This document shows, piece by piece, positions 4,859-61,573 of a stretch of 64,000 bases of DNA. Positions within the stretch are counted from its first letter, which is position 1, and each line of letters starts with the position of its first letter. The translations under genes were made by a program, and so were the position numbers. Source of the stretch: a virus; the IMG/VR virus record IMGVR_UViG_3300037189_024986, positions 1-64,000 of that record; one strand, 5' to 3'. The notes below the pieces were generated by a model. It was not told the DNA's origin. It searched no databases and saw nothing but the letters and a program-made list of their open reading frames with translations.

Positions 4859-5764
4859 ATGGCCACAATACCAAGAATAGTATATTTTGCACAGACAGTG
4901 ACAATCAATTCTCCATCTGCTGGAACACTTACTCTTCCAATCAGTTCGGCGAATATTGAAGTATCAAGACCAATTGAAGCGATCAGCACTTTCGGAAAGT
5001 TTTCTTCCTTAAATACTGCTCAAACCAATTTGACTACTTGCAAGAGCACTTTAAAGGGATATTTAGGGTCTGCATCGGGGGGCATATCTGGATTTACTGC
5101 CTCATTCTTAAATAATTTAATCACGGACACGAAAGCCAGCAGCGGTGCATCTATTACTGTTTCTCCTGGTGGTTTTGCTATGACTGGTATTCTTACAAGT
5201 CTTGGCATCGACATTTCGATGGGTGGTTTTGGTATGATTGATTTAGGATTTGCCGGTATTGGTAACCCATCAATTACTGCTCCAACTACTACTTATGCTG
5301 CTGATCCTGTTAGTTCATATGCGATTTCTCCAATTACTACAATGAGTATCGGAACTGGTGGTGGATTAGCTAATACTTATGCTACTTCAATTAAATTTTC
5401 TTATGATTTGCCAAGTGATACACTCTCTGCTCTTGGAGATAATCCTAATGCAACTCAAGGAAATTTAACCAGTCAGATGGCTACAAAGCCTCCTTATAAA
5501 GCAACAATTAATGTTGAAGGACATGGTGTTGATCCAACAAAACTTGATACTAATTTTGCTGCCGCTGTTTATGGTATTGGTGATATTGGAGTTGCTCTTC
5601 CCAATGCTAAAGTTAGTGCTCGTTCAGTAAATAACGCTGCCGGACAGGTCAGCGAATCATTTGCTTATACAATTGAAGATACGACTGCCACACTTACGAC
5701 AGTTTCTCTTGGAGCTTATAGCCAAAATGGCAATACTCAAACAAGCCCAACTTACGGAGCTTAA
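4859..5764 (+). CDS. Probable major tail tube protein
   Basis: This 301-residue protein is rich in Ala, Thr, Ser and Gly and low in charge, with alternating beta-strand patterns, as expected for a tail tube subunit. It is the only gene in the block framed by its own long leader (87 bases, with an AAAGGA binding site at 4843-4848) and a strong intrinsic terminator directly after the stop. That arrangement suits a protein needed in many copies. The next genes are in the place of the tail assembly chaperones and then comes the tape measure gene, the standard order tube - chaperones - tape measure. Residues 220-290 (INVEGHGVDPTKLD and what follows) look like the C-terminal beta part. The call is based on order, expression signals and composition rather than on a recognised family signature. 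Confidence 0.65.
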   Translation: MATIPRIVYFAQTVTINSPSAGTLTLPISSANIEVSRPIEAISTFGKFSSLNTAQTNLTTCKSTLKGYLGSASGGISGFTASFLNNLITDTKASSGASITVSPGGFAMTGILTSLGIDISMGGFGMIDLGFAGIGNPSITAPTTTYAADPVSSYAISPITTMSIGTGGGLANTYATSIKFSYDLPSDTLSALGDNPNATQGNLTSQMATKPPYKATINVEGHGVDPTKLDTNFAAAVYGIGDIGVALPNAKVSARSVNNAAGQVSESFAYTIEDTTATLTTVSLGAYSQNGNTQTSPTYGA

Positions 5765-5781
5765 TTCTAATTACAAATCAC

Positions 5782-5810
5782 AAACCCTGGCTTCGGCCAG
5801 GGTTTTTTTG
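5782..5810 (+). terminator. Rho-independent terminator after the tail tube gene
   Basis: A perfect 10-base-pair stem, AAACCCTGGC (5782-5791) and GCCAGGGTTT (5796-5805), closes on the very stable UUCG tetraloop (5792-5795) and runs into a tract of seven T (5803-5809). This is the clearest terminator in the window. It separates high-level transcription of the tail tube gene from the chaperone and tape measure genes. Confidence 0.92.
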
Positions 5811-5828
5811 TTTCTATGTATCTTTTTC

Positions 5829-5837
5829 TTGTGTAAC
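5829..5837 (+). promoter_or_regulatory. GTGTAA motif downstream of the terminator
   Basis: TGTGTAAC at 5830-5837 resembles the recurring AGTGTAAT octamer. It lies 20 bases after the terminator and 23 bases before the ATG at 5861. A promoter is expected here because the terminator would cut off the genes that follow. Confidence 0.4.
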
Positions 5838-5860
5838 TACATTTAAGGGAAAGGAACATT

Positions 5861-6208
5861 ATGAATACACCAGAGAGTAAACTTATTGCCATAACTTGCG
5901 ATAAAGAAATAACGAATCTTTATAAAGACTTCTTAGAAATCATTGAAGACCTTCAAAAAGACCATTCTATTATGGTCGAAAAAATAAAAGAAAAATACGG
6001 TGAAGAATATGCTGAAAACATCAATTATTTTAAACCCGTCAAATACGATCAAATTAGAAAAAGAGTGCTTGATCACGGCAATGAATGCAATAGAAGTTTG
6101 TTAAATTTTCTTGGATTTTTTGATTCAACAATCAATATAGAAAAATTAAATAAAGAAAAAGTAGTTTATAAAAAAACCATTGTTTCTCCTCCTTTCTACA
6201 TAGAATAA
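5861..6208 (+). CDS. Tail assembly chaperone candidate (small)
   Basis: This is a 115-residue, highly charged, helical protein with a good ribosome binding site (AAGGGAAAGGAA about ten bases upstream). It lies between the tail tube gene and the tape measure gene, where siphoviruses encode chaperones that coat the tape measure protein. The length fits a gpG-like partner. It has no recognisable sequence signature. Its stop is part of a TAATAATAA run; the frame of the next gene is open back to position 6204, so a +1 slip at the stop would fuse it to the next protein, but no slippery heptamer is present. Confidence 0.45.
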   Translation: MNTPESKLIAITCDKEITNLYKDFLEIIEDLQKDHSIMVEKIKEKYGEEYAENINYFKPVKYDQIRKRVLDHGNECNRSLLNFLGFFDSTINIEKLNKEKVVYKKTIVSPPFYIE

Positions 6209-27303: not shown

Positions 27304-27311
27304 TTACTTCT
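27294..27311. terminator. Possible weak bidirectional terminator at convergent genes
   Basis: A perfect palindrome AAGTAATTAATTACTT (27294-27309) contains both stop codons of the converging genes and is flanked by A-rich and T-rich runs. In RNA the stem is at most six pairs, all but two of them A-U, so it would be weak. A terminator is expected at this convergent junction, and this is the only candidate I see. Confidence 0.25.
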
Positions 27312-28041
27312 TTTTAGATGCGGCTTTCTTTTTAATTCTTTCAATTAATTCAAATTGCTTGAATTTAGGAATATCAGAGACTGATTTTAGATCTTGCGCT
27401 CCATCAAACTTTTCTTCAATTAGCTTCTCTTTTATCTTTTCAAAAGTTACGGAATTTGCTGCCATTACTTCTTTTAAAAGGGAGCTTGAAGAATCCTGCG
27501 CTTCAGTATCTTGAGATGGAGAACCGCCAATTTCTTCTTGAGAGACGATATTGATACGAAGAAAGTTTCTTACGCAACGAACAAAAGCTCTATTTTCAGC
27601 AATTGGACCCAGATAATTCTTTGCAAAACTAGTTGTATTATATGGGCTTGCATCTCCTATACTAGTAAATTTAATAATTCTCCCCTCTGTTTCAAAATTT
27701 GGAATCCAACTCATGGTGCAGGTCGCAATAACATAATCAGAAGCGGGAGAACTGGTTGTATATTCCACAGAATTATATCCCCTGATTTGAGCTAATTCTT
27801 TGATTCCCGCAAGAAGAATCATCAAATCTTTGTCTTCTAGACCTTCAATGGTCTTTGGAACAGGCTTATTATATCTTTCAAAGTTGAGCTTATTTGGGAC
27901 AAGATGCTTGGGATTAATCATCTTTCTCCAGTCAATCAAATCGTCTGGACCATAGACGTAATTAATTGCGGGGCTACAGATTAGACCATATTCATTTCTT
28001 GAAATGATCTTATTTGGAATACAGGTATTTTTTTCGCTCAT
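27304..28041 (-). CDS. Candidate Rad52/DdrA-like single-strand annealing protein
   Basis: This 245-residue protein has a core (residues about 68-165) with the pattern I associate with phage annealing proteins of the Rad52/DdrA group. It has a helix (DLMILLAGIKELAQIRGY), a strand run with a Gly-Asp-Ala motif (SIGDASPYNT, 129-136), then an AENRAFVRCVRNFLRI helix (148-163), equivalent to the AETRAxxRALR helix of those families. The last 50 residues are helical and basic (Lys-rich), which suits DNA binding. Its lone position among virion genes is odd, but a possible ssDNA-binding protein lies in the same short minus-strand block. The family call is a motif-level inference; a phage protein of unknown function is the alternative. 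Confidence 0.4.
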   Translation of the reverse strand: MSEKNTCIPNKIISRNEYGLICSPAINYVYGPDDLIDWRKMINPKHLVPNKLNFERYNKPVPKTIEGLEDKDLMILLAGIKELAQIRGYNSVEYTTSSPASDYVIATCTMSWIPNFETEGRIIKFTSIGDASPYNTTSFAKNYLGPIAENRAFVRCVRNFLRINIVSQEEIGGSPSQDTEAQDSSSSLLKEVMAANSVTFEKIKEKLIEEKFDGAQDLKSVSDIPKFKQFELIERIKKKAASKKK

Positions 28042-28071: not shown

Positions 28072-29256
28072 TCAAGCGGTTAATTTGACGATTGTAAAAA
28101 AATCTAAATTATCCCAAAAAGAAGGAGAATCTATAACTTTTTGATATTCAAAATTATTTTTGGCAACGATGTTATTTTCTACTGCCGCCAAGCTGTAATA
28201 AAGCTGACCATTTGCTGCCACTGTTTTAGCAGAACGGTAATAAAGAGAGTCTTTTTCTTTCTTTAATTCTTCTATTTTTTCTTTGCTTGGCTTTTCTATT
28301 GGATTTATCGTGCCAAAAGAATAATATTTTATTTTTAATTTTTCTATTTTGTCTTGTTCGAGGTCTGAAATTAGAATAAGCTTCAATCCTTCATCCCTGA
28401 GCTTCTTTAAAAAATCCAACTGATCTGTTTCGGTAATTTTAAAAACTAAATTTACAATGTTCTGCTTAAATTGTTTTAATAAATTAATATTGACTGGCTT
28501 ATCCATTATTAAAAAAGATTTTTTATATTGAGCTAATTGGTAACTAAGGCTTTCGTCGTCACAATTTACATCGGCACGAATTTCAACTATTGCTTCTGTG
28601 TTAAAAATGGCGTTTTTATGATTTGGTAGAGATTCTTGTATTGAAAAATGAGAATATTTATTTCCAGTAAAGACTGTCTTAAATGGAATTTTAAAATCAA
28701 TATTTAATTTCTCTAAAATTAAGTTTGCTATTTCTTCTGGATTGATTAAATTAATGGACTTTGGATTTTCTTGTTCGTTGAAGGATGGCTTTTTATTTTC
28801 GGTCCTTAAAAAACTTTCAAAAACAAATTGATTATTTTTTTCTCCAAAAAATGGTCCATTATTATTAGCGTAAGATACTGTGCTGATACTAACAATGGGC
28901 TTATTCTCTGCGCCAGCAATCTGGGATTCAATTCCATTGACGCCAAAAAATAATAATGATTTTTCCATTAAATAAGCCATCTGATTTATGGATGCTTTTC
29001 CGCACAAATTAATAACTCCTCCATAATTAATGGAATCTGCGTTACCAAGTTGTAAAATCTTTATATTATGTTCTTCTAATTTTGGCGACAGGCAATTAAT
29101 CACATCTTGCCAATAAGAATAGTCTTTTGCTGGAATTTTATTTTCTGGGCGAAAAAGAATATATTTTTCTATGGGTAAAGGAAAATAAGCCTTATAAATA
29201 AAAGGTTTATCTATTTTTGCGCCACAGGCTAATGCGTAAGATTCTAAAGTATGCAT
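28072..29256 (-). CDS. GT9-like glycosyltransferase, C-terminal half plus unknown domain
   Basis: Residues about 30-130 look like the donor-binding second half of heptosyltransferase-type (GT9) enzymes: a strand KYILFRPEN, a helix, KILQLGN, then the NLCGKASINQMAYLMEKSLL segment. That segment corresponds to the G-x-(S/T)-(L/I)-x-(E/Q)-(L/M) region, followed by a GIESQIAGAENKPIVSI end. The expected first half of a GT9 enzyme is missing here and is found at the end of the preceding gene. Residues about 200-394 form an additional domain not recognised (strand VEIRADVNCDDESLSY and helix-strand repeats). ATG 29256 is two bases after the previous stop, so translation is probably coupled. The two products may fold together as one enzyme. 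Confidence 0.55.
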   Translation of the reverse strand: MHTLESYALACGAKIDKPFIYKAYFPLPIEKYILFRPENKIPAKDYSYWQDVINCLSPKLEEHNIKILQLGNADSINYGGVINLCGKASINQMAYLMEKSLLFFGVNGIESQIAGAENKPIVSISTVSYANNNGPFFGEKNNQFVFESFLRTENKKPSFNEQENPKSINLINPEEIANLILEKLNIDFKIPFKTVFTGNKYSHFSIQESLPNHKNAIFNTEAIVEIRADVNCDDESLSYQLAQYKKSFLIMDKPVNINLLKQFKQNIVNLVFKITETDQLDFLKKLRDEGLKLILISDLEQDKIEKLKIKYYSFGTINPIEKPSKEKIEELKKEKDSLYYRSAKTVAANGQLYYSLAAVENNIVAKNNFEYQKVIDSPSFWDNLDFFTIVKLTA

Positions 29257-29258
29257 AT

Positions 29259-31196
29259 TTAATTATATTTTAAAGAAAAATCAATTTTATCGTTTCCGTT
29301 GTGCATGAATGAAGGAAGCTTTTGGGTTGTAACATATGGCAAATAAGCAACATTAAAATAACCCTTATGAGAGTTATTGCCTTCTAAAAATACAATATTT
29401 TCCATCATTGGATTAAACTCTATCCATTTATCTACAAATTGGTTACCATCAATAATCTCTTTGTACTCTCTTTTTGTAGAAACATATAGAGACCATTCAG
29501 GATACTTTTCTTTGATCGACCTAAAGAGTGAGGAAATAAGAAATATATCTTCTGCATTTCCAGGCTGAACAACAATTACTCTGCCCTTGTCATTTGAATT
29601 TAAAAGGTCTTCAAATTTGACACCTTGAGCATTTTTTTCTTGACCATTTTTAAATGCGACTTGACGAAAATAATCTTCTATTTGTTGGCGATTTAAATCT
29701 TTATCTATTCTCGCCATCCAATGTTTAAATCCGTCATCATTTCTGTCTATTGACTTTTCGTCAAGGATATTGTGGTAAAGATGCAAAATCCATTCTGCAT
29801 TATCTTTAATATCTGGGACTTTATAATTAGGATTTGGATTGTTTTTGATTGGTTCAAAAGCAGAATCATCATTAATCTTTGGAGCGGCGTCAATAAAATC
29901 TTCCAAAAACTTACCAATAACTTCTATGGAAAAATTATCAATTACCCACTGCCTACCAGTTTTTCCAAGCTGCTTTCTGACTTCTGGTTTCATATTCAAT
30001 ACCTTTGTTAATTGCTTTGATATTGAATTAGGATAAGTACTTGCTTTAATGAACATTGTATCTGGCTCTCTATACTCTGCCCAATCAAGTGGCAAAGACC
30101 CTGCTCCGTCTTCGCAAGAATCTTCTCCACAGCTATAATTGGTAACAAGAGTAACAAGTTCAGTTAATTTTGCTTCTTGAATTGGTATTTCCTGCCCACC
30201 AGAAGTGAAGGGATGACAATAAACATCCATTAAATTATAAATTTCATTTAATTGAACTTCATCTACGCCAAATCCAGGGCCAGTAGTTGTTTGGCTTTTT
30301 TCAGCCCTACAAAATCTGCAATTTTCATCATTAGTAGAAAATGACTTTATTTCATACTTACCGCAATTTCTGCAAACATAAGTGGTCAATACATCGGAAA
30401 GTCTTAATCCATGCTCTTCCAAAAGTTTTTGGATATTCCATCCCTCTACCCAAGAGGTATGAAGCAATAGCTTTGTTTTCAAAGATGGATTCGCTTGTTT
30501 AAACATTTTGAATCCTTGAATCAAATTTGGAACGCTTTTTCTGAGCTGATTTCTAAAAACAAATCCGACTATAAATGTTTCTGGGTCAATATTGTTTGCC
30601 TTTCTTAAGGCTAATCTCTGCGTCTCTGACAATCTATAAAAATTATTCGTATTCAAAGACCCTCTCACAGTTTTTGTGTGGGTGTGGCCCATTTTATGAA
30701 GAGCCTTTGTGGCAAAATCCGCCCAACTCCAATAATTCTTTGTCTTTTTTGCTGCGACCACTGCTTTATCAAGGATTGGAAGAGAATCCAAAGTGGTCCA
30801 TAGCGCACAAGTAATTTTATTAAACCAAGGCTTTTCTATTGAGAAATCAATTCCCCAAATATCTTGAATACCAATATAAACATCTGGCTTTTCTTGCCTT
30901 ACAGCGTCATCAATGGCAAATGCCCCATATCCCGCCATTCTACTGATTCCATCCCAATTTTTGGGGTCATTTTGTTGTCTAATAAGCTCTATCTTATTGG
31001 GCTGAATGGTAGCTAAAGTTTTCCAAGGGGTTCTATTTAATTCCTGAATGTTGCCTTCTACAGAACCAACTGCAAGATTGATCAATTCATATTTATCTGT
31101 ATTAAAAAGATACTCTAGAATATTCCTTGCGTTTTTACCAAAACCAGTATTTGCCAATGGGAAATCAGTATGAATGAGGACTTTCTTTTTTGCCAT
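29259..31196 (-). CDS. GT4 glycosyltransferase fused to a GT9-like N-terminal half
   Basis: This is a 645-residue multidomain protein. Residues 1-440 form a GT4-type GT-B glycosyltransferase: an N-terminal VLIHTDFPLANTGFGKNARN segment, an acceptor-domain strand near residues 103-112, a VGFVFRNQLRKSVPNLI segment at 210-226, and a QEIPIQEAKLTE donor-site motif at 335-346. A CxxC...CxxC zinc ribbon (C275, C278, C293, C296) is inserted in the GT core. Residues 468-515 resemble a DUF4214-type helical linker (LYHNILDE...GFKHWMARI). Residues 538-645 match the first Rossmann half of GT9 (VIVVQPGNAEDIFLISSLFRSIKEKYP). Its partner half is in the next gene. Probable role: sugar transfer to phage or host glycan; donor unknown. 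Confidence 0.7.
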   Translation of the reverse strand: MAKKKVLIHTDFPLANTGFGKNARNILEYLFNTDKYELINLAVGSVEGNIQELNRTPWKTLATIQPNKIELIRQQNDPKNWDGISRMAGYGAFAIDDAVRQEKPDVYIGIQDIWGIDFSIEKPWFNKITCALWTTLDSLPILDKAVVAAKKTKNYWSWADFATKALHKMGHTHTKTVRGSLNTNNFYRLSETQRLALRKANNIDPETFIVGFVFRNQLRKSVPNLIQGFKMFKQANPSLKTKLLLHTSWVEGWNIQKLLEEHGLRLSDVLTTYVCRNCGKYEIKSFSTNDENCRFCRAEKSQTTTGPGFGVDEVQLNEIYNLMDVYCHPFTSGGQEIPIQEAKLTELVTLVTNYSCGEDSCEDGAGSLPLDWAEYREPDTMFIKASTYPNSISKQLTKVLNMKPEVRKQLGKTGRQWVIDNFSIEVIGKFLEDFIDAAPKINDDSAFEPIKNNPNPNYKVPDIKDNAEWILHLYHNILDEKSIDRNDDGFKHWMARIDKDLNRQQIEDYFRQVAFKNGQEKNAQGVKFEDLLNSNDKGRVIVVQPGNAEDIFLISSLFRSIKEKYPEWSLYVSTKREYKEIIDGNQFVDKWIEFNPMMENIVFLEGNNSHKGYFNVAYLPYVTTQKLPSFMHNGNDKIDFSLKYN

Positions 31197-31215: not shown

Positions 31216-31716
31216 TTAGAATGAACTTTTTTCTGGAAGAGTTTCTTGTTTTTGAAAAGACTTATCCAAAGCGTGAATCAAGAATTCTCGGATCAATCTT
31301 CCTTCTGCAAAAGTTAAACCAATATAAAAACTATTTTTTGCGCTAGAGTCTTCCTTGTCTGTTACTGCAATACTAAAGGAATAACCTCTTTGAGAAGGTT
31401 TTTCACCTTCTGCCACTTTGTTCATCCATTGACCAAATTTAATAGCTTTAAGATTTTTATCGCTATCATGTACAGTTGAGAATTCCCTGCCTCTATCTAA
31501 TGCATCTAAAATCGCAGCAGCCTCAACTTGACCAAGTTTTACATTAACCTGCTTAAATGGGTCGTTTCTACTAGCAGAAAATGTTCCAATTTGGCTTTTT
31601 GGGTCCCAAGTTGATTGTTTTATTAATGTTGCAAAAATAGCATTGTCTTTTGAAGATTGGGAAAAAGAGCAGGCAAATCCAGTATTGTTTTTATTCGGAT
31701 GATATATGGCCAACAT
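31216..31716 (-). CDS. Possible ssDNA-binding protein
   Basis: This 166-residue protein appears to consist of two similar beta-rich halves each followed by a helix: YHPNKNNTGFACSFSQ ... VEAAAILDALD, then GYSFSIAVTD ... EGRLIREFLIHAL. This arrangement recalls PC4/whirly-type ssDNA-binding folds and a phage protein group that I remember only as uncharacterised. It is the first gene of the reversed block, so it is read from the AT-rich divergent region. It shares the block with the Rad52/DdrA-like candidate. The fold suggestion is weak; the gene itself is convincing from codon use and packing. Confidence 0.4.
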   Translation of the reverse strand: MLAIYHPNKNNTGFACSFSQSSKDNAIFATLIKQSTWDPKSQIGTFSASRNDPFKQVNVKLGQVEAAAILDALDRGREFSTVHDSDKNLKAIKFGQWMNKVAEGEKPSQRGYSFSIAVTDKEDSSAKNSFYIGLTFAEGRLIREFLIHALDKSFQKQETLPEKSSF

Positions 31717-41436: not shown

Positions 41437-43998
41437 TTACGATTCCTTTAATTCTGCCAATTTACTATAAATTTTATTTTGTTGGGTAGCGATGATGTCT
41501 GCAAAGACACAATCATCTTCCATTTTTGTGCCGCAAACAATGACAATGTCTCCTTCTTTTGGCAAACCATTATTCAAAGACTTACATTGTTCAAGCTTGT
41601 CTTTAAAAATCATGACCTTCAAGCTTCCTGTTTCGTCGCTGATTTGAAATCTAGCATAAGTATTTCCATTTTTTGTTTTTCCTGTTTTGGGCGCTTCTTC
41701 TAATACTCCAATGAAATCGCATTTTGTTTTTTCTCCATATCCTTGGATATCAACAATAGGCTCTAGGGTTTCTTTTTTAGAAAGGAATATATCAATCAAT
41801 TTTTTGCCATGAGTATATCCAATCAACTTGTTCTCATACCACCAATTTGCAAAATCCATGCATCCCTTGTTCTGCAAATAAATTAATTTATATTTTTCCG
41901 AATGCTTCTTTATCGTTTCAAATCGAGAGGCCTTAATAAGATTTTTGCCTTTTTCATCTTTAATTGTATCAACTAAAGCTTTGACTGTTTTGGAGACGCT
42001 ATTTTCATAATTGTTTGCATAATTGATAACGTGCCTTTTTTCTTTATCCGTTAAGATATTCCAAAGCTGCGCCTCGTAAACAAGTAATGGGCGATTATTA
42101 GATAAGCTATCAAGCGTACCAGCTTGAATAAGAGCAGACAAAACACCTATTCCAAGACCAGCTTCTTTAGAAGACTCAAAAAGTTCAAATTTATTAGAAT
42201 GGCGTCTTTTAAAATTATTAAATTTTTCAATTGTTTTTTCACTTATGCCCCTAATAGAAGACAAGCCAAATCGAATGTTTTTGCCTTCAATAGAGAAATC
42301 GACTTCGGAGAGGGTTAAACTTGGAGGAAGCAATTCAACCTTCAATGCGTTCATTTCTTTATGAATCTTAGAGATTTCGCCAATTGGGTCGGGTTCATGC
42401 CTAGTCATTTTCAACAATGACAAATAAAATTGAGTAGGATGATTAAACTTTAAATATACTGTTTGCGCACACAATACGGAATAAGAGAAGCTGTGAGACT
42501 TGTTAAATTGATAACCGCCAGAGTCTTCAACGATTTTCCAGAAGACTTCGCCCACTTCTTTGGGGAGTTTATTTTCTTTGACCTTTTCTTCAATCTTTGC
42601 TTTCCAAGTTTTAATTTCTTCAATCTTCTTTTTACCAATGCATCGACGAATCTGTTCTGATTCATCCAAGGTAAAGCCAATTTTATTAGCCATTTTCATA
42701 GCCTGTTCTTGATAAAGACACAGTCCGCCGGTTTCTCGTAAAACATCATCAAAGAATGGATGAATTGAATCTACTGTTCCTGTATTAGAATAATTTGCAA
42801 AGTTATCTGCAAATTGCAAGGCTCCTGGTCGAGCAATAGCCAATACAGCACTGATTTCAGACAAATTCTTTGGTTTAACTTTCTTTGCGACCTTAAAATT
42901 AGTCTCTGCTTCAATTTGAAAGACTCCATGAGGATATTTCAAATCTTGTAGATGCAAATAAATAGATTCTTCATTTACATTGATATCTTGAGGCTTAATT
43001 CCCAAAGACTTGCAGCAATCATCAATTACTGATACGCTTCTCAAGCCGAGGGCGTCCAGCTTAACAGCAAACTCTGCCACCCATCCCATGTCATAACTAG
43101 ATACTTCTTCTTTGTCAGAAGAAAGTTCTGTTGGGCAACAGTCTTCCAGCTTGTCAAAAGAAATCAGGATTCCAGAAGGATGGACTCCCTTGTTTTTAAT
43201 TAAATCTTTTAATTTTAAAGCGGTATCATAAATCAAAGAATTTTTACTGCACCATTCTTTAAACTCTGGGGAAGTCTCATACGCCTCCTTCATGTCCATA
43301 ATGATACCATGGTTTTTTGGAATAAAACCCGTAACCATCGTCATTTCTTCCTCGGGCTTCATTCCTAGAACTTTGCCAACTTCTTTAATACAAAGCTTTG
43401 CAGAAAGAGTGTTGAGAGTAAGGATTTTTGAAGTTTTACCTTTGTATTTTTGATTGATATAATCAATAACTTTAGAACGCTGATAATAATCAAAATCAAT
43501 ATCAACATCCATCAGAAGAGAGCCAGCAAGATAAATAATTCCATCAATAACAGTCTTTTTTGAGCGAGTTTTTGAAATGAAGCGTTCAAAATATAATTCA
43601 TTTTTTAATGAATCAATCTTTGTCACACCAATAAGAAAAAGAACAAGACTTCCAGCGGCAGATCCACGACCTGGACCAGTGGGAATATTTTGCTCTCTGC
43701 AAAAGTTTACAACATCCCATACCAACAGAATATAATCGACTAGACCAAGGTCATTGATTGTATCTAATTCGTATTTGACTCTGGTGGAATAATCTTTGTA
43801 TTCTTTTGAGCCTTTTGCATGACCCAAAGCAAGGAAACCTTTTTTACAAAGAGAACGTAAAAAATCAAAATTAGAGCAATCCTCTCCTAATCCCAAATCT
43901 TTTCTATGGCGTTCCTCGATTTTAATTTCTGGAAGACGCACTCCTTTAATTGGGCTTTCAATTGTAGAGAACTGACTGACAAAATCCAAAGTATTCAT
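41437..43998 (-). CDS. dnaE: C-family DNA polymerase III alpha, catalytic part without PHP
   Basis: This 853-residue product copies phage DNA. It aligns by motif with bacterial DnaE from just after the PHP domain. It shows PTGPGRGSAAGS (106-117), the catalytic pair Asp166 and Asp168 in DVDIDF, and the third metal ligand Asp314 in KLDALGLRS. These correspond to D401, D403 and D555 of E. coli DnaE. Fingers and helix-hairpin-helix parts follow (VFQIEAETNFK, QEQAMKMANKIGF, FNKSHSFSYSVL, FGLSSIRGISEKTI), and an OB-fold lies at about 750-840. The N-terminal PHP domain is absent and is encoded separately two genes upstream. The start overlaps the exonuclease stop (ATGA), so the subunits are translationally coupled. 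All catalytic aspartates are intact, so it should be active. Confidence 0.93.
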   Translation of the reverse strand: MNTLDFVSQFSTIESPIKGVRLPEIKIEERHRKDLGLGEDCSNFDFLRSLCKKGFLALGHAKGSKEYKDYSTRVKYELDTINDLGLVDYILLVWDVVNFCREQNIPTGPGRGSAAGSLVLFLIGVTKIDSLKNELYFERFISKTRSKKTVIDGIIYLAGSLLMDVDIDFDYYQRSKVIDYINQKYKGKTSKILTLNTLSAKLCIKEVGKVLGMKPEEEMTMVTGFIPKNHGIIMDMKEAYETSPEFKEWCSKNSLIYDTALKLKDLIKNKGVHPSGILISFDKLEDCCPTELSSDKEEVSSYDMGWVAEFAVKLDALGLRSVSVIDDCCKSLGIKPQDINVNEESIYLHLQDLKYPHGVFQIEAETNFKVAKKVKPKNLSEISAVLAIARPGALQFADNFANYSNTGTVDSIHPFFDDVLRETGGLCLYQEQAMKMANKIGFTLDESEQIRRCIGKKKIEEIKTWKAKIEEKVKENKLPKEVGEVFWKIVEDSGGYQFNKSHSFSYSVLCAQTVYLKFNHPTQFYLSLLKMTRHEPDPIGEISKIHKEMNALKVELLPPSLTLSEVDFSIEGKNIRFGLSSIRGISEKTIEKFNNFKRRHSNKFELFESSKEAGLGIGVLSALIQAGTLDSLSNNRPLLVYEAQLWNILTDKEKRHVINYANNYENSVSKTVKALVDTIKDEKGKNLIKASRFETIKKHSEKYKLIYLQNKGCMDFANWWYENKLIGYTHGKKLIDIFLSKKETLEPIVDIQGYGEKTKCDFIGVLEEAPKTGKTKNGNTYARFQISDETGSLKVMIFKDKLEQCKSLNNGLPKEGDIVIVCGTKMEDDCVFADIIATQQNKIYSKLAELKES

Positions 43999-44639
43999 AT
44001 TTCTATTTGATATTTTAGCTTATTCCAGACTTTGAGGTTTAATTGCAAATCAACCAGTGCGTTATGCAAATTGTCATAGTCATGATCTATATTATACTCT
44101 TTACCAAGAGAAGTCAAGTTCGTTTTAATGCCTTTTATATGTGCGTTTGCCATCGTGTATTGATAATCCATCCAAACATCATCATTTGGTCTATATGGGC
44201 GGTTCATTTTGATTCCTTGCGCAACGGATTTTGTATCAATGATTTTATCAAGGATAAAAGACCAATCTTCACCCATATATTCGAAATATCCTTTTAATAA
44301 GTAAATGTCAAATCGTAAACCATTGTGCATTATAATTTTATCTGCCCATTTTAACGATTCAATGATTTTCGGAAATGCCTCATCGGGCGTAACACTGTTT
44401 TTATCAAAATGAGCTTGATTGAACTTGGTTACCATTGCCGCCCCTGCGCCTATTTTAAATTTACAATCATCCCACTTGATTAGAAGATCTATTTCTTCGA
44501 TAATCTGTTCTCCTTCTACCTTTAATACTGCAATCTGCCAAGGTCTATTTGCCTGAAAATTTAAATTTAAATTAAATGTTTCGCAATCAATAAGTGCAAT
44601 CTTTGCTTTTTTATTAAATCTGATAAGATGTTCGTCCAT
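43995..44639 (-). CDS. DEDDh 3'-5' exonuclease, DnaQ/epsilon-like
   Basis: I chose ATG 44639 rather than the first in-frame ATG at 44690, because the latter overlaps the PHP gene by 47 bases and adds residues unlike the family. The 214-residue product has all DEDDh residues in order: Asp18 and Glu20 (ALIDCETF), Asp111 (IIMHNGLRFDIYLL), His192 and Asp197 (LHNALVDLQL). It is therefore a proofreading-type exonuclease. It lies between the two parts of the split polymerase III alpha gene and overlaps the catalytic part by four bases, which strongly suggests it proofreads for that polymerase. In PolC-type enzymes the exonuclease is inserted in the PHP domain, so the gene order here echoes PolC. Confidence 0.88.
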   Translation of the reverse strand: MDEHLIRFNKKAKIALIDCETFNLNLNFQANRPWQIAVLKVEGEQIIEEIDLLIKWDDCKFKIGAGAAMVTKFNQAHFDKNSVTPDEAFPKIIESLKWADKIIMHNGLRFDIYLLKGYFEYMGEDWSFILDKIIDTKSVAQGIKMNRPYRPNDDVWMDYQYTMANAHIKGIKTNLTSLGKEYNIDHDYDNLHNALVDLQLNLKVWNKLKYQIEI

Positions 44640-44643
44640 AATA

Positions 44644-45405
44644 TTATTTGTTATTTTCACGCAGCCAACGGTCATAATTAAATGAATCACTGCAAAGATG
44701 ATTAAATTCTGGCTTTTCTATATTTGTTCTTTCCGAAATGCATCTAAATGTGTTGTAGGCAATAAAGTCAAGTTTTGATTTATAATAAATGCTTTGAACT
44801 TCAAGCGTTTCTAATTTATTATTTTTACTATAATCAAGTACTTTTTTTCGCAGCAGCCCATCAAACGGAATTCCATTATCTTCTAAAAACATTATTGGTT
44901 TAATTGCGCCAAATTCAGGGACATGAAAATGACCTTCAAAAGAATTTAAATGAAGAAAAGAGTCATAAAATGGCACTGCGAGACTCAAATCTTCTACCCA
45001 TAATCTATGAAGATTTGCAAAGTCTAAACAGGCATTGTAGTAAAACCCCTCTTTTGCCGCAATGCTCCAAAGCTTTATTAAAGCCTGATAACCTTTATTA
45101 TTTTTGGCGAAAATGATATATTTCGCCCTGCTGTTTAGCGAATCTGCGTCCTGATTTTTAATATCTTTTGTTATTGAAATTCTTAATCCAAAGATTAATT
45201 TAAGTTTATTTTCTGTGCATCGAGTAATTGCCTCTAAAAAAGAAGAAACATTATCCTCGACAAGACAAAGATGGTCTTGTTTGGAATGAAGAACTAAATC
45301 AATGATAGAAACAGGATAATTTTCAATTGAACCAGATGGCTTTTCTAGGGTATTAATTGATTTTCCCAAAGAAAAATGGCTTTTGTAACAAGCAAGTTTT
45401 TGCAT
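44644..45405 (-). CDS. Separate PHP domain of DNA polymerase III alpha, degenerate
   Basis: This 253-residue protein matches the N-terminal part of DnaE: a YKSHFSLGKS start (cf. the VHSxYS strand), HLCLVEDN (cf. ALTDH), LKLIFGLRISI (cf. IKPIVGxE), and KYIIFAKNNKGYQALIKLWSIAAKEG (cf. the LLAxNxxGYxNLxxL-S helix). It ends in the AFRCI..-type helix region (YNTFRCISERTNIEKPEF) just where the separate catalytic gene begins. The metal-binding histidines and aspartates of active PHP domains are mostly lost, so it is likely structural. It is probably needed to complete the polymerase fold or to bind the adjacent exonuclease. The domain assignment is strong; the inactive state is inferred. Confidence 0.75.
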   Translation of the reverse strand: MQKLACYKSHFSLGKSINTLEKPSGSIENYPVSIIDLVLHSKQDHLCLVEDNVSSFLEAITRCTENKLKLIFGLRISITKDIKNQDADSLNSRAKYIIFAKNNKGYQALIKLWSIAAKEGFYYNACLDFANLHRLWVEDLSLAVPFYDSFLHLNSFEGHFHVPEFGAIKPIMFLEDNGIPFDGLLRKKVLDYSKNNKLETLEVQSIYYKSKLDFIAYNTFRCISERTNIEKPEFNHLCSDSFNYDRWLRENNK

Positions 45406-50777: not shown

Positions 50778-51167
50778 TTATTTATATAAATTTAAAAAGT
50801 CTTTTAGGGATTTGGGTTGTTTTTTAAAAACAGTGTCTTCTCCTATTTTATTTTGAGACAGCATTATTTCCTGATGTTTAGGAGAAAAATCGGAAATAGA
50901 TTTTTTATAATTAAAAAACTGCTCTTGCAAATATTGCTGCCCATAATCCGCAATAAAATAAGCAAGAGATGGTACTTTTTTATTATACGGAGGAATAACC
51001 CAAAGAAGAAAATCTGGATTATACTTTGCGCAAAGAGTATTTGCAATCTTCATTTCCCTTGGCCAGAAATACTTTTCAGAGAAACTGGCTGGATCAATGA
51101 ATTTAGAAATAATTTTATGCTGAATCTTCGGCTCTTTTTTAAGAGGTTTTTCTTGAATTAATTTCAT
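50778..51167 (-). CDS. Hypothetical protein
   Basis: This 129-residue basic protein has a Lys/Glu-rich N-terminus and a central segment (KIANTLCAKYNPDFLLWVIPP) that looks like a helix and strand, then a helical C-terminus. No family was recognised. The start overlaps the dehydratase gene by 29 bases, and the end is four bases before the recombinase gene. It stands at the border between the glycan and replication genes and could belong to either. The small recombinase-adjacent position suggests a DNA-related accessory role, but nothing in the sequence proves it. Confidence 0.5.
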   Translation of the reverse strand: MKLIQEKPLKKEPKIQHKIISKFIDPASFSEKYFWPREMKIANTLCAKYNPDFLLWVIPPYNKKVPSLAYFIADYGQQYLQEQFFNYKKSISDFSPKHQEIMLSQNKIGEDTVFKKQPKSLKDFLNLYK

Positions 51168-52212
51168 TTACATCTGATAGTACCATACGTTCTACCAGTT
51201 TGTCAAATGAAATTTTCGGGGTCCAGCCGAGTTCAGTTCTTGCAAGCGTTGAATCCCCCAAAAGAATATCAACTTCCGCAGGGCGATAAAATTTTGGATT
51301 AATTTTGACCAAAACAGAGCCTTTGACATTCAAATCTTCCGCCAATTTATTTGTGATTGAATATTCTTCGCTCAAACCCTTTCCGTGCCATGCTCCATCA
51401 ATTCCAGCAACTTTAAATGCTTTTTCAATAAATTCTCTAATGGAATGCGTTTCGTTAGAAGAGAGAATATATTCCTTTGGCTTTTCTTGATTCATCATTA
51501 GCCATACGCCTTCAATAAAGTCTTGTGCATGAGACCAATCGCGTTTTGCATCAATATTTCCAAGTTCAAGCGGGGCGAATTCTTGATTATTTTCTATTGC
51601 GTTTTTAATTCTTGCTACATTGGTCGTGATTTTTCTTGTAACAAACTCAATGCCGCGTCTTTCGCTTTCATGATTGTATAAAATACAATGAACAGCATAT
51701 AAATTATAAGAATCTCTATAAACTTTGGTTAAATGTCTTGCCGCAGCTTTTGCTGCTCCATACGGGCTTCTTGGACGAATTGGATGGTTGAGGTCTTGAG
51801 GGGTATAAATTACATCCCCCATCTCTTCAGAGCTTCCTGCGCTGTAAAAACGACAATGTGGTGCAAATTTTCGGATAGCTTCAAGGCATCGAAGCACTCC
51901 CATTGCTCCCGCATCAAAAGTCTGCTCTGGGATTTGCCAACTGATACCTACAAAAGATTGAGAAGCGAAATTAATAAAATAATCTGGATTAACTTCTCTA
52001 ACAACGTTTTCTATTGATTGAGAATCACACAAATCTCCTGTGACCAATTGGAATCGGGGATTTTTTAATGCATTTTCAATATTTGAATAGTCTGGTTTAG
52101 CAGATCTTCTAACCATCCCATAAATTTGATGATTAGTATGTTCAAGCAGATAGTCTACCATATAAGACCCATCTTGACCAGTCACGCCCGAAACTATAAT
52201 TTTCTTATTCAT
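51139..52212 (-). CDS. gmd: GDP-mannose 4,6-dehydratase
   Basis: This 357-residue SDR enzyme converts GDP-mannose to GDP-4-keto-6-deoxymannose. It carries the Gmd signature VTGQDGSYM (10-18), NFASQSFVGISW (81-92), the active-site SAGSSEEMG (124-132), RPRSPYGAAKAAA with Tyr151 and Lys155, and NHESERRGIEFVTRKIT (the NHESPRRGxxFVTRKI signature of the family). The length is typical. The product is the precursor of GDP-fucose, GDP-rhamnose and GDP-colitose. The next genes include an SDR enzyme and a fucosyltransferase-like protein. Overlap with the preceding SDR gene is four bases, so they are co-translated. Confidence 0.93.
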   Translation of the reverse strand: MNKKIIVSGVTGQDGSYMVDYLLEHTNHQIYGMVRRSAKPDYSNIENALKNPRFQLVTGDLCDSQSIENVVREVNPDYFINFASQSFVGISWQIPEQTFDAGAMGVLRCLEAIRKFAPHCRFYSAGSSEEMGDVIYTPQDLNHPIRPRSPYGAAKAAARHLTKVYRDSYNLYAVHCILYNHESERRGIEFVTRKITTNVARIKNAIENNQEFAPLELGNIDAKRDWSHAQDFIEGVWLMMNQEKPKEYILSSNETHSIREFIEKAFKVAGIDGAWHGKGLSEEYSITNKLAEDLNVKGSVLVKINPKFYRPAEVDILLGDSTLARTELGWTPKISFDKLVERMVLSDVNEINSRKTS

Positions 52213-53015
52213 AGTTCATTATAAATCTGCTTGATACCATTTGTCAAGTTTATTTTGGGATTCCAAAGATTTAAAATATATTTATCTGGTTCATTTTTCT
52301 TATTCATTTGGATATCGTATGAATCTCCAATAGAAATTGAGGCACCAGACATAGAAGAAATTATTTTGGCTATGTCAATAATCTTTGTCCATTCAAAGTT
52401 TGTAATGTGAAGATTTTCATTTCTGGAAATTTCTTGATATTTATTCATTAAAATCTCAAGACATTCAGAACAGTCATCTGCGTGCAAAAATTGCCTCTCT
52501 TCTTCTCCAGAAGTTTTTATGGCAATGTGGCCTTTGCTTTTTGCTGCTTTGATAAAATCAGTGATTACATGAAACTTCTTTTCGTCTGTTTCTAGCCCAT
52601 AAACATTCCAAAATTTAACAAGCAATCCGCCAAGATTTTGAGTGTACTTCTCTCCTATAGACTTCAATAATCCATAATTTGAATAACTCATATTTGCCAT
52701 TTGACTTGAAGCAAACAAAAATGGGGTTTTGTATTTTTCTAAAGACTCAAACGTATAAAGCATAAGCTTCATATTGTTATCCATAAATTCTTTGGTATCT
52801 TGATACTTCTTCAAATATGTTGAGCCTCCCACATCAAACGCTAAAAAGAATACAAAATCTATTGATGGCAAAATAGTATTTAAAATGTCTTTTTGTCGCA
52901 AGTCTTGTTCTGGATTTTTTTCTATATCAAATTCCTTAACATTATGATTTTTGCTGAGATGGTTTTTTAATGCTGCGCCAATTTGACCTTGAGAACCTAG
53001 TATTAAAATGTTCAT
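52209..53015 (-). CDS. SDR-type nucleotide-sugar epimerase/reductase
   Basis: I chose ATG 53015 rather than the ATG at 53033, because it starts the Rossmann fold directly and gives a four-base overlap with the previous gene. The 268-residue product has a GSQGQIGAAL nucleotide-binding loop (7-16), a VFFLAFDVGGSTYL segment, an FASSQMA strand, the catalytic Tyr114 and Lys118 (YGLLK), and RQFLHADDCSECL before the C-terminal part. This last segment matches the REFxHVDD pattern of GDP-fucose synthase and related epimerases, as does the VGGS stretch. Following Gmd, it may reduce the keto intermediate. The family is certain; the exact reaction is not. Confidence 0.7.
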   Translation of the reverse strand: MNILILGSQGQIGAALKNHLSKNHNVKEFDIEKNPEQDLRQKDILNTILPSIDFVFFLAFDVGGSTYLKKYQDTKEFMDNNMKLMLYTFESLEKYKTPFLFASSQMANMSYSNYGLLKSIGEKYTQNLGGLLVKFWNVYGLETDEKKFHVITDFIKAAKSKGHIAIKTSGEEERQFLHADDCSECLEILMNKYQEISRNENLHITNFEWTKIIDIAKIISSMSGASISIGDSYDIQMNKKNEPDKYILNLWNPKINLTNGIKQIYNEL

Positions 53016-53842
53016 ATATGTTTTAAAAAGCAATTTTCATATAACCATTTGTCTGGTGAAGCAAATTTCTGAAATTTATTAAAATTTTCTTCAATTACTT
53101 GCTTTTTGTTATTATAGTCTTCTACGCTAATTTTTGCCAGTATCTGTTTCAGGTCTTCTATTGTTTCCCAAGTATAAAATCCATCTTTATTAAAATGATT
53201 TGACATATTTGGGTCTCCCCAATAAATAGGAATACATCCCGAAGCAAAACAATCAATAATTTTATCTGTAAAATAATTGGGAAATCTACAGTTTTCCGCA
53301 ACTATCATATACATATAGTCTTTAAATGGCGCCACTCTTCCATCTGGCTCATCGCTAAACCATTTATAACCACTTCCCCAAAGTTCAAGTTCGGGGTGCA
53401 AATTCATGGATATCAATTTGTGGCGAAGCTGATGTCCTGGAGCATAATTTTTATTTGATGCAACAATTGATAATAATTTGTTCTTGGGATAGATTTTGCA
53501 ATTTTGCTTTGGTATCCAACAAGCCCCACCGCAATAAGCTTGTTTATATTTTGGATTATTTGGGATTGGAGCGTAAGTATAAATATAATCAAATTTATGT
53601 TCTATTTGATGAATATGATTGATTACATACGGTTTTATTATTGGACTTTCTGCTGCTAGTGCAATTTTGTATTTTGATTTAACTTTGTCTACAATTGGGT
53701 CAAAACACATTTCATCTGTAAATAAAGATATGCCGTCAAATTCCATTAGCGGGGGCTTGATATATTCTACCAAAGGCTCTGGCCAATGCATGTTAATATA
53801 AGGTCCATCTCCAGTATTCTTGTCAAAAAAATTAATTTTCAT
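53012..53842 (-). CDS. GT10 (alpha-1,3-fucosyltransferase-like) glycosyltransferase
   Basis: This 276-residue protein ends in the GT10 donor-binding signature: MIVAENCRFPNYFTDKIIDC and ASGCIPIYWGDPN (about 179-212). It corresponds to the FENxxxxDYVTEK and GxVPIYWG motifs of fucosyltransferases. The N-terminal half carries the acceptor-side strands (IALAAESPIIKPYVI). GT10 enzymes use GDP-fucose or a related GDP-6-deoxysugar. Gmd two genes downstream makes the precursor, so donor and transferase are encoded together. Overlaps of four bases connect it with both neighbours. The acceptor is unknown. Confidence 0.8.
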   Translation of the reverse strand: MKINFFDKNTGDGPYINMHWPEPLVEYIKPPLMEFDGISLFTDEMCFDPIVDKVKSKYKIALAAESPIIKPYVINHIHQIEHKFDYIYTYAPIPNNPKYKQAYCGGACWIPKQNCKIYPKNKLLSIVASNKNYAPGHQLRHKLISMNLHPELELWGSGYKWFSDEPDGRVAPFKDYMYMIVAENCRFPNYFTDKIIDCFASGCIPIYWGDPNMSNHFNKDGFYTWETIEDLKQILAKISVEDYNNKKQVIEENFNKFQKFASPDKWLYENCFLKHI

Positions 53843-54537
53843 ATATTTTTTTTGTGTTCGTCTATCTTTTTCTCCAATTCTGCTTCTGTATAGTCTTGAA
53901 AATGCTGAAAACCTCGTGGGGACATTTGGCGACCCAGATAATTAATTATTGCTTCTGGATTATTTGAAATATCATGGATATGAGAATATACGCATTCGTT
54001 TGCTTTGGCCGTTATATATCCTTTTGTTGCGGCTCTGTATGCAAGCTCTCTTTCGCAGCCAAGTGGGGAAGCAATTTCATCATAAACATAATCTCCGCAA
54101 TCTTTTATCATTTTAGATTTTAAACCCAAAACAAATCCCTGCGGTATTGATACTATGTCGTTTGGTTTTCCTCCCATTCCCACGCATGAAATTCCTATAT
54201 TATCTGGGATAAGTGTCTCAACTAAAGACTTATATGTCGCTGGATGAACTGCACAATCATCACTCAACATTATTAAATATTTTGACCAAGAAATTTTGTA
54301 TGCTAGATTTATAGCTTTTGCAAATCCCATATTTTGACTGGAAAAAATAAATCTTGTTATTCTTGGCTCATTTTTTGCATATTCTAATATTTTCCAACTT
54401 TCTTCTGAGTAAAAATTTATAATTAAAATAAATTCATCAGGTGGGAATCCGCTATATGCTTCCTCGACTCTTTTTTTGATATTATCTAAAGATTTATAGC
54501 CTATCGTTAATATTGCATAATTATTTTTATTATCCAT
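53839..54537 (-). CDS. GT2 glycosyltransferase, rhamnosyltransferase-like
   Basis: The start at 54537 fits better than 54555, which would enlarge the overlap with the previous gene. The 232-residue product has a GT-A fold: an AILTIGYKSLDNI start, an FIFSSQNMGFAKAINLAYK segment typical of GT2 rhamnosyltransferases, and an IMLSDDCAVHP metal-binding segment (Asp-Asp in place of DxD). It ends in a helical tail with many Glu and Lys. It overlaps the GT8-like gene by eight bases. It probably adds a sugar to the same glycan as its neighbours. Confidence 0.72.
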   Translation of the reverse strand: MDNKNNYAILTIGYKSLDNIKKRVEEAYSGFPPDEFILIINFYSEESWKILEYAKNEPRITRFIFSSQNMGFAKAINLAYKISWSKYLIMLSDDCAVHPATYKSLVETLIPDNIGISCVGMGGKPNDIVSIPQGFVLGLKSKMIKDCGDYVYDEIASPLGCERELAYRAATKGYITAKANECVYSHIHDISNNPEAIINYLGRQMSPRGFQHFQDYTEAELEKKIDEHKKNI

Positions 54538-55222
54538 AGAGTTCCTTATAGTCATTTTCTATTGTTTGGAATTTATTTCCATTTCCATACTTGCATGGAC
54601 CGGCATAATGAATAAAATTGGAGTTATATCTATTATTCTGTTCGTCAAATTCTCCCAAATCCATTCTGTTGAAGCTATGAGATAAAGATTTAAATGGAAT
54701 TTTGTTCTTGGCTACAGCAAAATTTAAAGCAGTTTGCTCTCCTCCGTCAATGCTAAAGCATTTTTGTGTAAATTGAATTTTTGAAATCAAAGAAAATAGA
54801 TTAACGTGAGGCTTTGAATATAAAACGCACCCAGAATTAAAATACATTTTTCTGTTATCTATCAACGGCCATTCAAAATCTGGACTATAAGTATCAATCC
54901 AGGAGTCCCTTTTCATATGTTCTGCATCGCCGTTTTCATTGAATGCGTATAAATAATTTTCGTCTGGATATTCTTCAAATATATTTTTTGCAGAAGGGGT
55001 AACTAATACGTCTGCATCTAAACATAATACTCTATCATATTCTTCCAAGAGTTCCAAACATTGAAATTTTTCAAAATAGTGATTTATAAAATTATATTTT
55101 TGCCCATTGCACAAAAAGAAAGACAATTGATATTTTTCTGCGTATTTTGCTATAGAATTTAAACAAAATTTATATCTGGAAGGATCTCCAAGAGCCAAGC
55201 TGAATATTGCTAATTTTTTCAT
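54530..55222 (-). CDS. GT8-like glycosyltransferase
   Basis: This 230-residue protein has a GT-A fold with a strong DxD metal site in YDRVLCLDADVLVTP (Asp69, Asp71). A NSGCVLYSKP segment follows, as in GT8 glycosyltransferases, and a GGEQTALNFAVA strand-helix. The C-terminal HYAGPCKYG segment resembles the HxxGxxKPW end of GT8 enzymes. It starts inside the last 53 bases of the GT9-like gene, an unusually long overlap, but the first ATG begins a good LAIFSLALGDPSRY strand, so I keep it. The sugar donor is unknown. Confidence 0.7.
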   Translation of the reverse strand: MKKLAIFSLALGDPSRYKFCLNSIAKYAEKYQLSFFLCNGQKYNFINHYFEKFQCLELLEEYDRVLCLDADVLVTPSAKNIFEEYPDENYLYAFNENGDAEHMKRDSWIDTYSPDFEWPLIDNRKMYFNSGCVLYSKPHVNLFSLISKIQFTQKCFSIDGGEQTALNFAVAKNKIPFKSLSHSFNRMDLGEFDEQNNRYNSNFIHYAGPCKYGNGNKFQTIENDYKELYG

Positions 55223-56210
55223 TATTTATAACTTCTTTTATTATATATTCTGCGAGTAATTTCGGAGATAAATTCTCGCATTCTCTTTTGCATGATTGAG
55301 ATAAATTTTCTCCACCAAAAGCTTCTAAAAAATATGATGGACATTTCTTTCTGCATTCTAAATGCAAATGACTTGGAAAAAATGAATTTCCAAGTTTAAA
55401 AAATTCTACTTTATTAATTAAACACGCTTGAAACAAAACAATGGGCTTATTTCTTATATTAAATGCATGATGTACTCCGCCATCACTCATTATTCCATAA
55501 TCCATAAAATCTACATTCCTTATTAAATTAAAAATGTCTCCTGTGTCTGGGCAATGCTCGTCTCCAATTCCAAAATTTTCTTGAGAAAACTCAAATATTT
55601 TTATTCTAGGATTGGAATATTTTAATGTTTTTACTAGCTCTTTCCATGATTCTAGCCCTTTCATACCATTAAATCTAAACCCTTTTCCATCGCAATGGGG
55701 GTGAGGCGTTGTTTTGCCTGAAAGTTTTGTGGTGGGAACAATTCCTATGTTAATAAAATTAGTATTATTTTCGTATTTTGGCACATTTATTTCTGATAAA
55801 AAGCTTTGTTTTTTATCAAAAAGTAGGTTTTCTAGCCCTAATTGAAGTAGGTAATTCAATGTGATTATATTTGCTGTTGGATGGTTTTCTAAAAGTTCAG
55901 CATTATCTTTCCAGAATGTAAACGTCTTTGGGTGCCAATCTGGATAAATTACCTTTATATTTTCTATTTTCTCATCCGAAAGGGCGTATTGATGATAATT
56001 AACGTATATTTCTTGCTGATTTGGTTCTCTAACCAAGTCTACGTTTTTATCCAATTTAAATATATCTATAAGAAATCCATAAGTGATTACTTCTAGGGTG
56101 CAATCTGGATATACTGATTTTAAAATCTTGGGAACAAAAGTAAAAATTAAACTATCCCCAAGGTTTTTTGGAAATATCCATCTTGGAAAATATAATCGAA
56201 TATTTTTCAT
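55170..56210 (-). CDS. GT9-like (heptosyltransferase-type) glycosyltransferase
   Basis: I chose ATG 56210, which gives the usual four-base overlap with the previous gene and begins directly with the Rossmann strand (KNIRLYFPRWIFPKNLGDSL). An upstream ATG at 56282 would add 24 basic residues. The 346-residue product has the GT9 GDxL start, IFTFVPKILKSVYPDCTLEVITY, then a second Rossmann half with KTFTFW, IKIFEFSQENFGIG, and a SDGGVHHAFNIRNKPIVLFQA segment (the DSGxxHxAxAxGxPxxxLxG motif of GT9). The C-terminus has a Cys-rich LECRKKCPSYF...SCKRECEN stretch, which may bind metal. It belongs to the glycan island. Confidence 0.72.
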   Translation of the reverse strand: MKNIRLYFPRWIFPKNLGDSLIFTFVPKILKSVYPDCTLEVITYGFLIDIFKLDKNVDLVREPNQQEIYVNYHQYALSDEKIENIKVIYPDWHPKTFTFWKDNAELLENHPTANIITLNYLLQLGLENLLFDKKQSFLSEINVPKYENNTNFINIGIVPTTKLSGKTTPHPHCDGKGFRFNGMKGLESWKELVKTLKYSNPRIKIFEFSQENFGIGDEHCPDTGDIFNLIRNVDFMDYGIMSDGGVHHAFNIRNKPIVLFQACLINKVEFFKLGNSFFPSHLHLECRKKCPSYFLEAFGGENLSQSCKRECENLSPKLLAEYIIKEVINNEKISNIQLGSWRSFQI

Positions 56211-58316: not shown

Positions 58317-58330
58317 AATTTATTATTGTT

Positions 58331-59056: not shown

Positions 59057-59059
59057 TTT

Positions 59060-60771: not shown

Positions 60772-60774
60772 ATT

Positions 60775-61569: not shown

Positions 61570-61573
61570 ATTT

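Follow-up and report, generated by a model that had tools for sequence, protein, structure and literature searches.

A GT9-type glycosyltransferase probably built from two adjacent phage genes, the first of which also encodes a GT4 enzyme

When one half of an enzyme seems to end one gene and the other half to begin the next, do the two products build a single enzyme, do they work apart, or is their separation an error of the sequence? The question is raised by a 64 kb window, positions 1 to 64,000 of the 82,247-base IMG/VR virus record IMGVR_UViG_3300037189_024986. On its minus strand lie four consecutive genes, UP166, P1, P2 and DN245 (Table 1), flanked by long plus-strand genes that are presumed, by size and position only, to be structural. 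A reading of the letters and their open reading frames (ORFs), hereafter the sequence-only reading, had seen in P1 a complete family 4 glycosyltransferase (GT4) followed by the N-terminal half of a family 9 glycosyltransferase (GT9), and in P2 the missing C-terminal half. We find that the split is real, old and conserved, and is no artefact. P1 and P2 are very probably two subunits that build one GT9-type (heptosyltransferase-like) enzyme of the GT-B fold in trans, beside the complete GT4 site.

The two genes are separate in the window sequence, as the sequence-only reading had stated. The TAA stop codon of P1 occupies 29261-29259; after two further bases, P2 starts with ATG at 29256 in a different frame. 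That reading had also asked for a check on an indel at the junction. Relatives ruled it out: the junction is identical in locus L002, which is 96% identical to the window, and two ORFs are present in 81 of the 81 sequences first compared. These 81 are the window and the best 80 of 592 relatives confirmed by a scan of viral contigs with P1. In each of four scans, which overlap, more than 590 relatives were confirmed, and a scan with the divergent P1 of L178 gave only 2. P2 alone as query found one locus only; an alignment-based P2 scan confirmed 289, of which the best 80 were kept. P2 was found without P1 in the examined DNA at 5 of these 80 loci, namely L146, where it lies at a contig end, and L133, L142, L143 and L163. 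A scan of genome contigs added 12 loci from metagenome-assembled genomes, mainly with Bacteroidota labels but also with others; P2 is present in 10 of them, and in L196 and L206 the contig breaks off with P1 or soon after it. No relative of P1 (E 1e-5) or of P2 (E 0.1) was found among 50,697 phage records.

The search for one-gene versions returned no fused ORF. None joins the GT9 N-half to P2 among 404 P1-type and 405 P2-type ORFs from 410 partly overlapping loci. Reduced to distinct P1 sequences with both genes, the set comprises 263 loci, window included; none is fused, and the GT9 N-half is present in 263 of 263. The genes are adjacent in 237, overlapping in 117 of these, with a spacing of -17 to +18 nt and with all three relative frames in use (142, 83 and 12 loci). 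In the other 26 distinct loci, 192-650 nt of other DNA separate P1 from P2. The three frames, together with the loci where genes intervene, ruled out a programmed frameshift or readthrough. In a large group of uncultivated phages the two-gene arrangement is the norm, and it is not peculiar to the window. Among the inserted genes are an ORF of 213 residues in L032, L065 and L072, and one of 125 residues in L037, L038 and L044 which appears to resemble DUF6165.

The GT9 N-terminal Rossmann half had been proposed at P1 residues 538-645. For hhalign, the reference was a set of 12 GT9 proteins (Escherichia coli K-12 WaaF, WaaC and WaaU and nine genes from a plasmid collection), and the E-values and probabilities given are those of single comparisons. 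The profile of P1 532-645 was placed on WaaF 1-58 with a probability of 97.4%, the match covering P1 534-645, and the proposal is thereby supported at the level of profiles. Pfam GT9 (PF01075) gave no match in the window P1. The list of structure-search matches for P1 was filled by GT4 chains, so that the GT9 half is assigned from profiles. Residue conservation was counted over 249 aligned pairs; the set then comprised 256 distinct pairs, from which 7 were dropped because of a truncated P1 (below 500 residues) or P2 (below 350). Asp550 is an Asp in 248 of the 249 rows. The tail of P1 is also kept in the family (T624 in 244, Q625 in 246 and H632 in 243 rows), and it has a predicted local distance difference test score (pLDDT) below 50 at residues 623-635 and 640-645 when P1 is modelled alone. 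A 718-residue relative of P1 in L107 (2841-4994) carries an unrelated-looking C-terminal stretch after its GT9 N-half, with P2 next as usual. A possible extra GT9 N-half in G006 (L183, E 0.005) was rejected, being part of another ORF that is GT4-like by eye.

The predicted structure of P2 has a mean pLDDT of 91.2, and Foldseek ranked WaaF first for it. By VIA-align, P2 1-186 superposes on residues 131-345 of WaaF (1psw) with a Z-score of 16.1 and a root-mean-square deviation (rmsd) of 3.0 over 169 residues; residues 140-322 of WaaC (2gt1) come close behind. Pfam GT9 positions 105-220 of 247 match the window P2 at residues 30-136 (E 0.0034), its 17.2 bits lying below the 22-bit cut-off. The family is matched by 44 of 50 aligned P2 members at E <= 0.1 (best 3.9e-14), and lies above the curated cut-off for P2 in 18 of 21 records. 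The hhalign probability of the P2 1-190 profile against the GT9 proteins is 98.5%, whereas the second domain of P2 and both halves of the P1 GT4 enzyme stay below 1%. The structural match to the C-halves of WaaF, WaaC and TibC and the Pfam matches bear out the claim that P2 starts with a donor-binding half. As to the second domain, its best sequence match in the PDB reaches no lower than E 0.22, its probability against the GT9 N-half is 0.1%, and the list of structure-search matches for P2 was filled by the GT9 part. The head of P2 is among its best-kept positions (G12 in 245 and P18 in 244 rows), with a pLDDT of 76-79.

The sequence-only reading had placed the split between the two domains of the enzyme, and in this it was mistaken. 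P2 begins at the equivalent of WaaF residue 131 or WaaC residue 140, with a helix that, by GT-B anatomy, is the last of the N-terminal domain. Since P1 534-645 falls on WaaF 1-58 and P2 1-186 on WaaF 131-345, it is the N-terminal domain itself that is cut, ahead of this last helix; P2 moreover has its further domain. The conserved P1 tail of low pLDDT and the conserved P2 head would fit an interface at which each part needs the other. When P1 532-645 and P2 1-190 were joined, the profile gave one colinear, end-to-end hhalign alignment with the GT9 proteins at a probability of 99.5%. It found WaaF at E 1.6e-10, compared with 0.018 and 3.5e-7 for the single halves. Under HMMER a joined profile of reversed order scores about like the normal one. 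HMMER is therefore silent on the order, which rests on hhalign. That the two parts together resemble a complete GT9 enzyme is thus upheld by the hhalign order, the structural match of P2, the conserved Asp, the 263 of 263 distinct loci and the co-variation described below.

What is known of HepI (WaaC) allows the putative joint active site to be read. According to PMC5713226, D13 is the proposed catalytic base, and activity drops about 4688-fold in D13A, 926-fold in K192A and 2027-fold in D261A. We read the equivalent residues by eye from the hhalign alignments. Asp550 of P1 takes the place of D13. At the K192 position (P2 44), 162 of the 249 rows have Lys and 65 Arg; at the D261 position (P2 107), Asp stands in 221 and Asn in 23; at P2 112, His stands in 210 and Gln in 31. 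All three residues D550, K44 and D107 are as in HepI in 145 rows, and in 60 further rows, which read D, R, D, H, the one difference is an Arg in place of Lys44. The window has both Asp550 and Lys44. Judged by these residues, the GT9 family as a whole looks catalytic, and the copy in the window may have lost part of its activity or take a different donor.

Co-variation was analysed between the GT9 N-half (GT9N) and the P2 donor-binding half (GT9C). A first mean-field fit placed 12 GT9N-GT9C pairs among its top 20 P1-P2 couplings. Mean-field results being equivocal, a pseudo-likelihood model was run on 256 aligned pairs of the 263 (effective number of sequences 140), using all variable columns of GT9N and GT9C, with random columns of GT4 and of the P2 second domain as controls. 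There, GT9N-GT9C pairs account for 9 of the top 10 couplings (3.2 expected, hypergeometric p 2.6e-4) and 16 of the top 20 (6.4 expected, p 1.5e-5). Repeats with other control columns, weights or penalty gave 15 and 14 of 20, and random halves of the data 12 and 15 of 20. The couplings fall into a cleft patch between the Asp550 loop and the donor motif, in which P1 549 pairs with P2 108 and 112 and P1 552 with P2 116, and a head-helix patch linking a helix and the tail of P1 to the P2 head helix (P1-P2 pairs 559-16, 560-13, 561-11, 555-9, 629-6 and 639-13), with one further coupling, 623-6, between the P1 tail and the P2 head. The couplings 559-16 and 549-108 were in the top eight of all five pseudo-likelihood runs. 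Finally, a coupling between P1 615 and P2 179 would fit a C-terminal helix that returns to the N-domain. Two mean-field controls with re-paired proteins brought the top couplings down to 2.5-2.6 standard deviations; re-pairing also removes shared ancestry. As neither method removes shared ancestry fully, the co-variation is supportive and not proof.

From these data we infer that P1 and P2 bind stably and form a catalytic joint site. Most likely, the two proteins would be translated together and then assemble, the C-terminal domain of P1 being completed by the head helix of P2. The last 112 or so residues of P1 would make up most of the Rossmann domain on the acceptor side, Asp550 included. 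P2 would contribute the last helix of the N-domain, the linker between the domains, all of the donor-binding domain and the C-terminal helix that returns to the N-domain. The GT9 cleft would then form between Asp550 and the P2 donor site, next to the GT4 site. Two sites tethered in this way suggest that two sugars may be added in sequence to one acceptor, the GT4 and GT9 sites acting in turn.

Several results weigh against a joint enzyme of this kind. In plain hmmsearch against the PDB, the P1 N-half gives nothing significant, with WaaF at E 0.27, 3tov at E 0.32 and three other chains scoring better (0.20-0.22). The hypergeometric test assumes independent pairs, and shared ancestry inflates all couplings. 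The mean-field method is weaker: for its top 8 couplings, p lay between 0.005 and 0.34 in four full-data runs; at a pseudocount of 0.3, only 1 of the top 8 is of the GT9N-GT9C type (p 0.97), while random halves gave p 0.03 each. In the window, P2 has Asn107 at the Asp261 position and Gln112 for the usual His, and a Glu precedes Asp550 in P1; Asn107 makes the activity of the window copy uncertain. In addition, four of the P2 records, L133, L142, L143 and L163, hold no recognisable P1 or GT9 N-half anywhere; the first three are alike in layout where read. P2 may thus not always need P1, although these records may be fragments.

The last result speaks for a different account, in which the proteins work separately: the C-terminal domain of P1 would be a remnant, or else an addition with which the GT4 enzyme binds its acceptor, and P2 would stand alone, its second domain replacing the N-domain in permuted order. 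The 26 distinct loci with other DNA between the genes and the alpha/beta nature of the second domain are also in its favour. However, this domain is unlike the GT9 N-half and is the least conserved part of P2 (mean pairwise identity 0.287), Asp550 is nearly invariant, GT9N is never lost from P1, and the GT9N-GT9C couplings exceed expectation. We consider separate action improbable. It is somewhat easier to imagine, while still unlikely, that the joint GT-B fold forms around a weak or dead second site, at least in the window phage, which holds the acceptor or regulates the GT4 site. The Asn107 and Gln112 of the window, the losses that D261A and K192A cause in HepI and the restriction of the full HepI-like triad to 145 rows would agree with this, whereas most rows retain D550 and D107 and 60 more differ by Arg44 alone. 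In favour of an artefact, whether an indel or a programmed frameshift yielding one long protein, the window junction is short and AT-rich. Yet the same junction in the 96%-identical contig, the variable spacing, the three frames and the 26 loci with intervening DNA leave this next to no likelihood. Returning to the two-subunit enzyme, a bolder version would make it an assembly-gated two-site transferase, in which there is no GT9 site until P2 has docked on P1, two sugars are added in sequence to one acceptor, and phage DNA, or a protein bound to DNA, could serve as that acceptor. That acceptor is suggested by the position of the pair, locked in every distinct locus with room between a Whirly-like, possibly single-stranded DNA-binding gene and another core gene; we regard this version as a long shot.

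The GT4 part of P1 was recognised as a complete enzyme by the sequence-only reading, and structure agrees. By VIA-align, P1 2-441 superposes on BshA (3mbo) with a Z-score of 31.8 and an rmsd of 3.6 over 357 residues, and the chlorella virus glycosyltransferase 3oy2 follows at Z 31.5; all 50 aligned P1 members match Pfam Glycos_transf_1 (PF00534) at E <= 0.1. For the E-x7-E motif of GT4 enzymes, the expected positions in P1 were placed by eye, which presumably puts Gly333 (249 of 249 rows) at the first Glu; Glu336 is present in 249 and Glu341 in 248 rows. A four-Cys insert in the C-domain gives weak HypA and zinc-ribbon matches in Pfam. The proposed DUF4214-like linker stands for the window, where its Pfam match is weak (E 0.12), and for most members (43 of 50 aligned at E <= 0.1), but it is not universal: at E 1e-3 it is present in 208 and absent from 55 of the 263 distinct P1. 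The P1 proteins of L204 (4199-5926) and L205 (5665-7503) have a GT9 N-half and no DUF4214 match.

Table 1. Genes, domains and residues of the P1-P2 module, in window coordinates.
Feature	Position	Strand	Remarks
UP166	31216..31716	(-)	directly upstream of P1; part of the conserved module
P1	29259..31196	(-)	645 aa; GT4-fold glycosyltransferase, DUF4214-like segment and GT9 N-terminal half
GT4-type GT-B enzyme, complete, P1 1-445	29862..31196	(-)	structure match and Pfam
Four-Cys zinc-ribbon-like insert in GT4 C-domain, P1 275-296	30309..30374	(-)	C275, C278, C293 and C296 invariant, 249/249 rows
DUF4214-like segment, P1 ~455-525	29622..29834	(-)	Pfam
GT9 N-terminal half, P1 534-645	29262..29597	(-)	hhalign 97.4% to WaaF 1-58; 263/263 distinct P1
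Asp550 of P1	29547..29549	(-)	HepI Asp13 equivalent; Asp in 248/249 rows
Conserved P1 tail, 619-645	29262..29342	(-)	proposed P2-binding segment
P2	28072..29256	(-)	394 aa; GT9 C-terminal half and further domain
GT9 C-terminal donor-binding half, P2 1-190	28687..29256	(-)	Z 16.1 to WaaF; Pfam GT9
Head helix, P2 1-18	29203..29256	(-)	by homology last helix of GT9 N-domain
Donor motif, P2 107-112	28921..28938	(-)	family mostly D-S-x-x-x-H; window N-G-I-E-S-Q
Fast-evolving alpha/beta domain, P2 191-394	28075..28686	(-)	mean pairwise identity 0.287
DN245	27304..28041	(-)	directly downstream of P2; part of the conserved module

Split GT-B enzymes as such are already known. In Alg14/Alg13 and in bacterial EpsE/EpsF, the N- and C-halves lie on separate proteins that act together, and most such genes are split, with several re-fusions, according to PMC8993221. 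The phage pair is similar in that two halves, which would share one GT-B fold, lie on two proteins, in 263 of 263 distinct loci. The known pairs belong to the MurG-related lineage and have been re-fused. In the phage pair, by contrast, the best matches of P2, in structure as in sequence, are GT9 proteins; no fusion was found, a complete GT4 enzyme is joined to the acceptor half, and the split falls within the N-domain. The resemblance to WaaC (HepI) and WaaF (HepII) extends over the end-to-end alignment of the joined halves and the conserved Asp13 position, whereas those enzymes are single-chain, and the phage P2 has an extra domain and variable donor-site residues. Likewise, P2 1-188 superposes on TibC 187-392 (Z 14.8). 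TibC, whose Asp110 is a candidate catalytic base (PMC4358343), is a single-chain, iron-containing, dodecameric GT9-type protein heptosyltransferase, with no GT4 module in the description given there. The best other matches of the joined profile are one-gene GT9-like proteins of similar phages with the same segment order, in L291 (783-1658), L199 (1365-2273) and L294 (486-1463), at E 2.7e-11 to 3.3e-9. They have about 290-330 residues and lack the GT4 part, and Pfam GT9 matches one of the three, weakly. A literature search judged by titles and abstract openings, with subscription papers mostly outside its reach, returned no paper recognisable as dealing with a split GT9 or with this gene pair. 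A two-gene, three-module transferase had been expected to be unusual: the combination of a split GT9 with a GT4 in one of the two proteins seems to be new, as a variant of the known split GT-B enzymes, and within its phage group it is the rule.

The neighbours of the pair are conserved as well. Where at least 1.5 kb was available on the respective side, UP166 was found in 228 of 228 and DN245 in 242 of 242 distinct loci. UP166 has a weak similarity to Whirly single-stranded DNA-binding proteins (E 0.022); beyond scattered weak matches, no family was found for DN245 in Pfam and PHROGs or for UP166 in PHROGs. Among the records with P2 alone, L133, L143 and L163 (P2 near 5001-6194) have DN245 after P2 and a membrane-like ORF of 115-132 residues directly upstream; P1 and UP166 were not found there. 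Elsewhere on the minus strand of the window, a sugar cluster at 51139-62416 comprises a GDP-mannose 4,6-dehydratase, epimerases, GT10, two GT2, GT8, a DegT aminotransferase, a methyltransferase, a radical SAM protein, GT17 and GT4, and a SET-domain protein is encoded at 62427-63272 (Pfam E 7.6e-11). The replicative DNA polymerase III alpha subunit (41437-45405) is seemingly spread over separate ORFs for PHP (44644-45405), an RNase T exonuclease (43995-44690) and the polymerase core (41437-43998).

Because the phage carries its own cluster of nucleotide-sugar and transferase genes at 51-62 kb, a phage glycan on a phage structure is the likeliest acceptor. The pair would be a natural example of a single enzyme fold that two genes continue to share, no fused copy having turned up in this phage group, and it predicts a precise protein interface with named residue pairs. 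It shows a possible way for a phage to couple two glycosyltransferases within a complex. In annotation, it would help to identify hundreds of proteins made of parts that are currently nameless.

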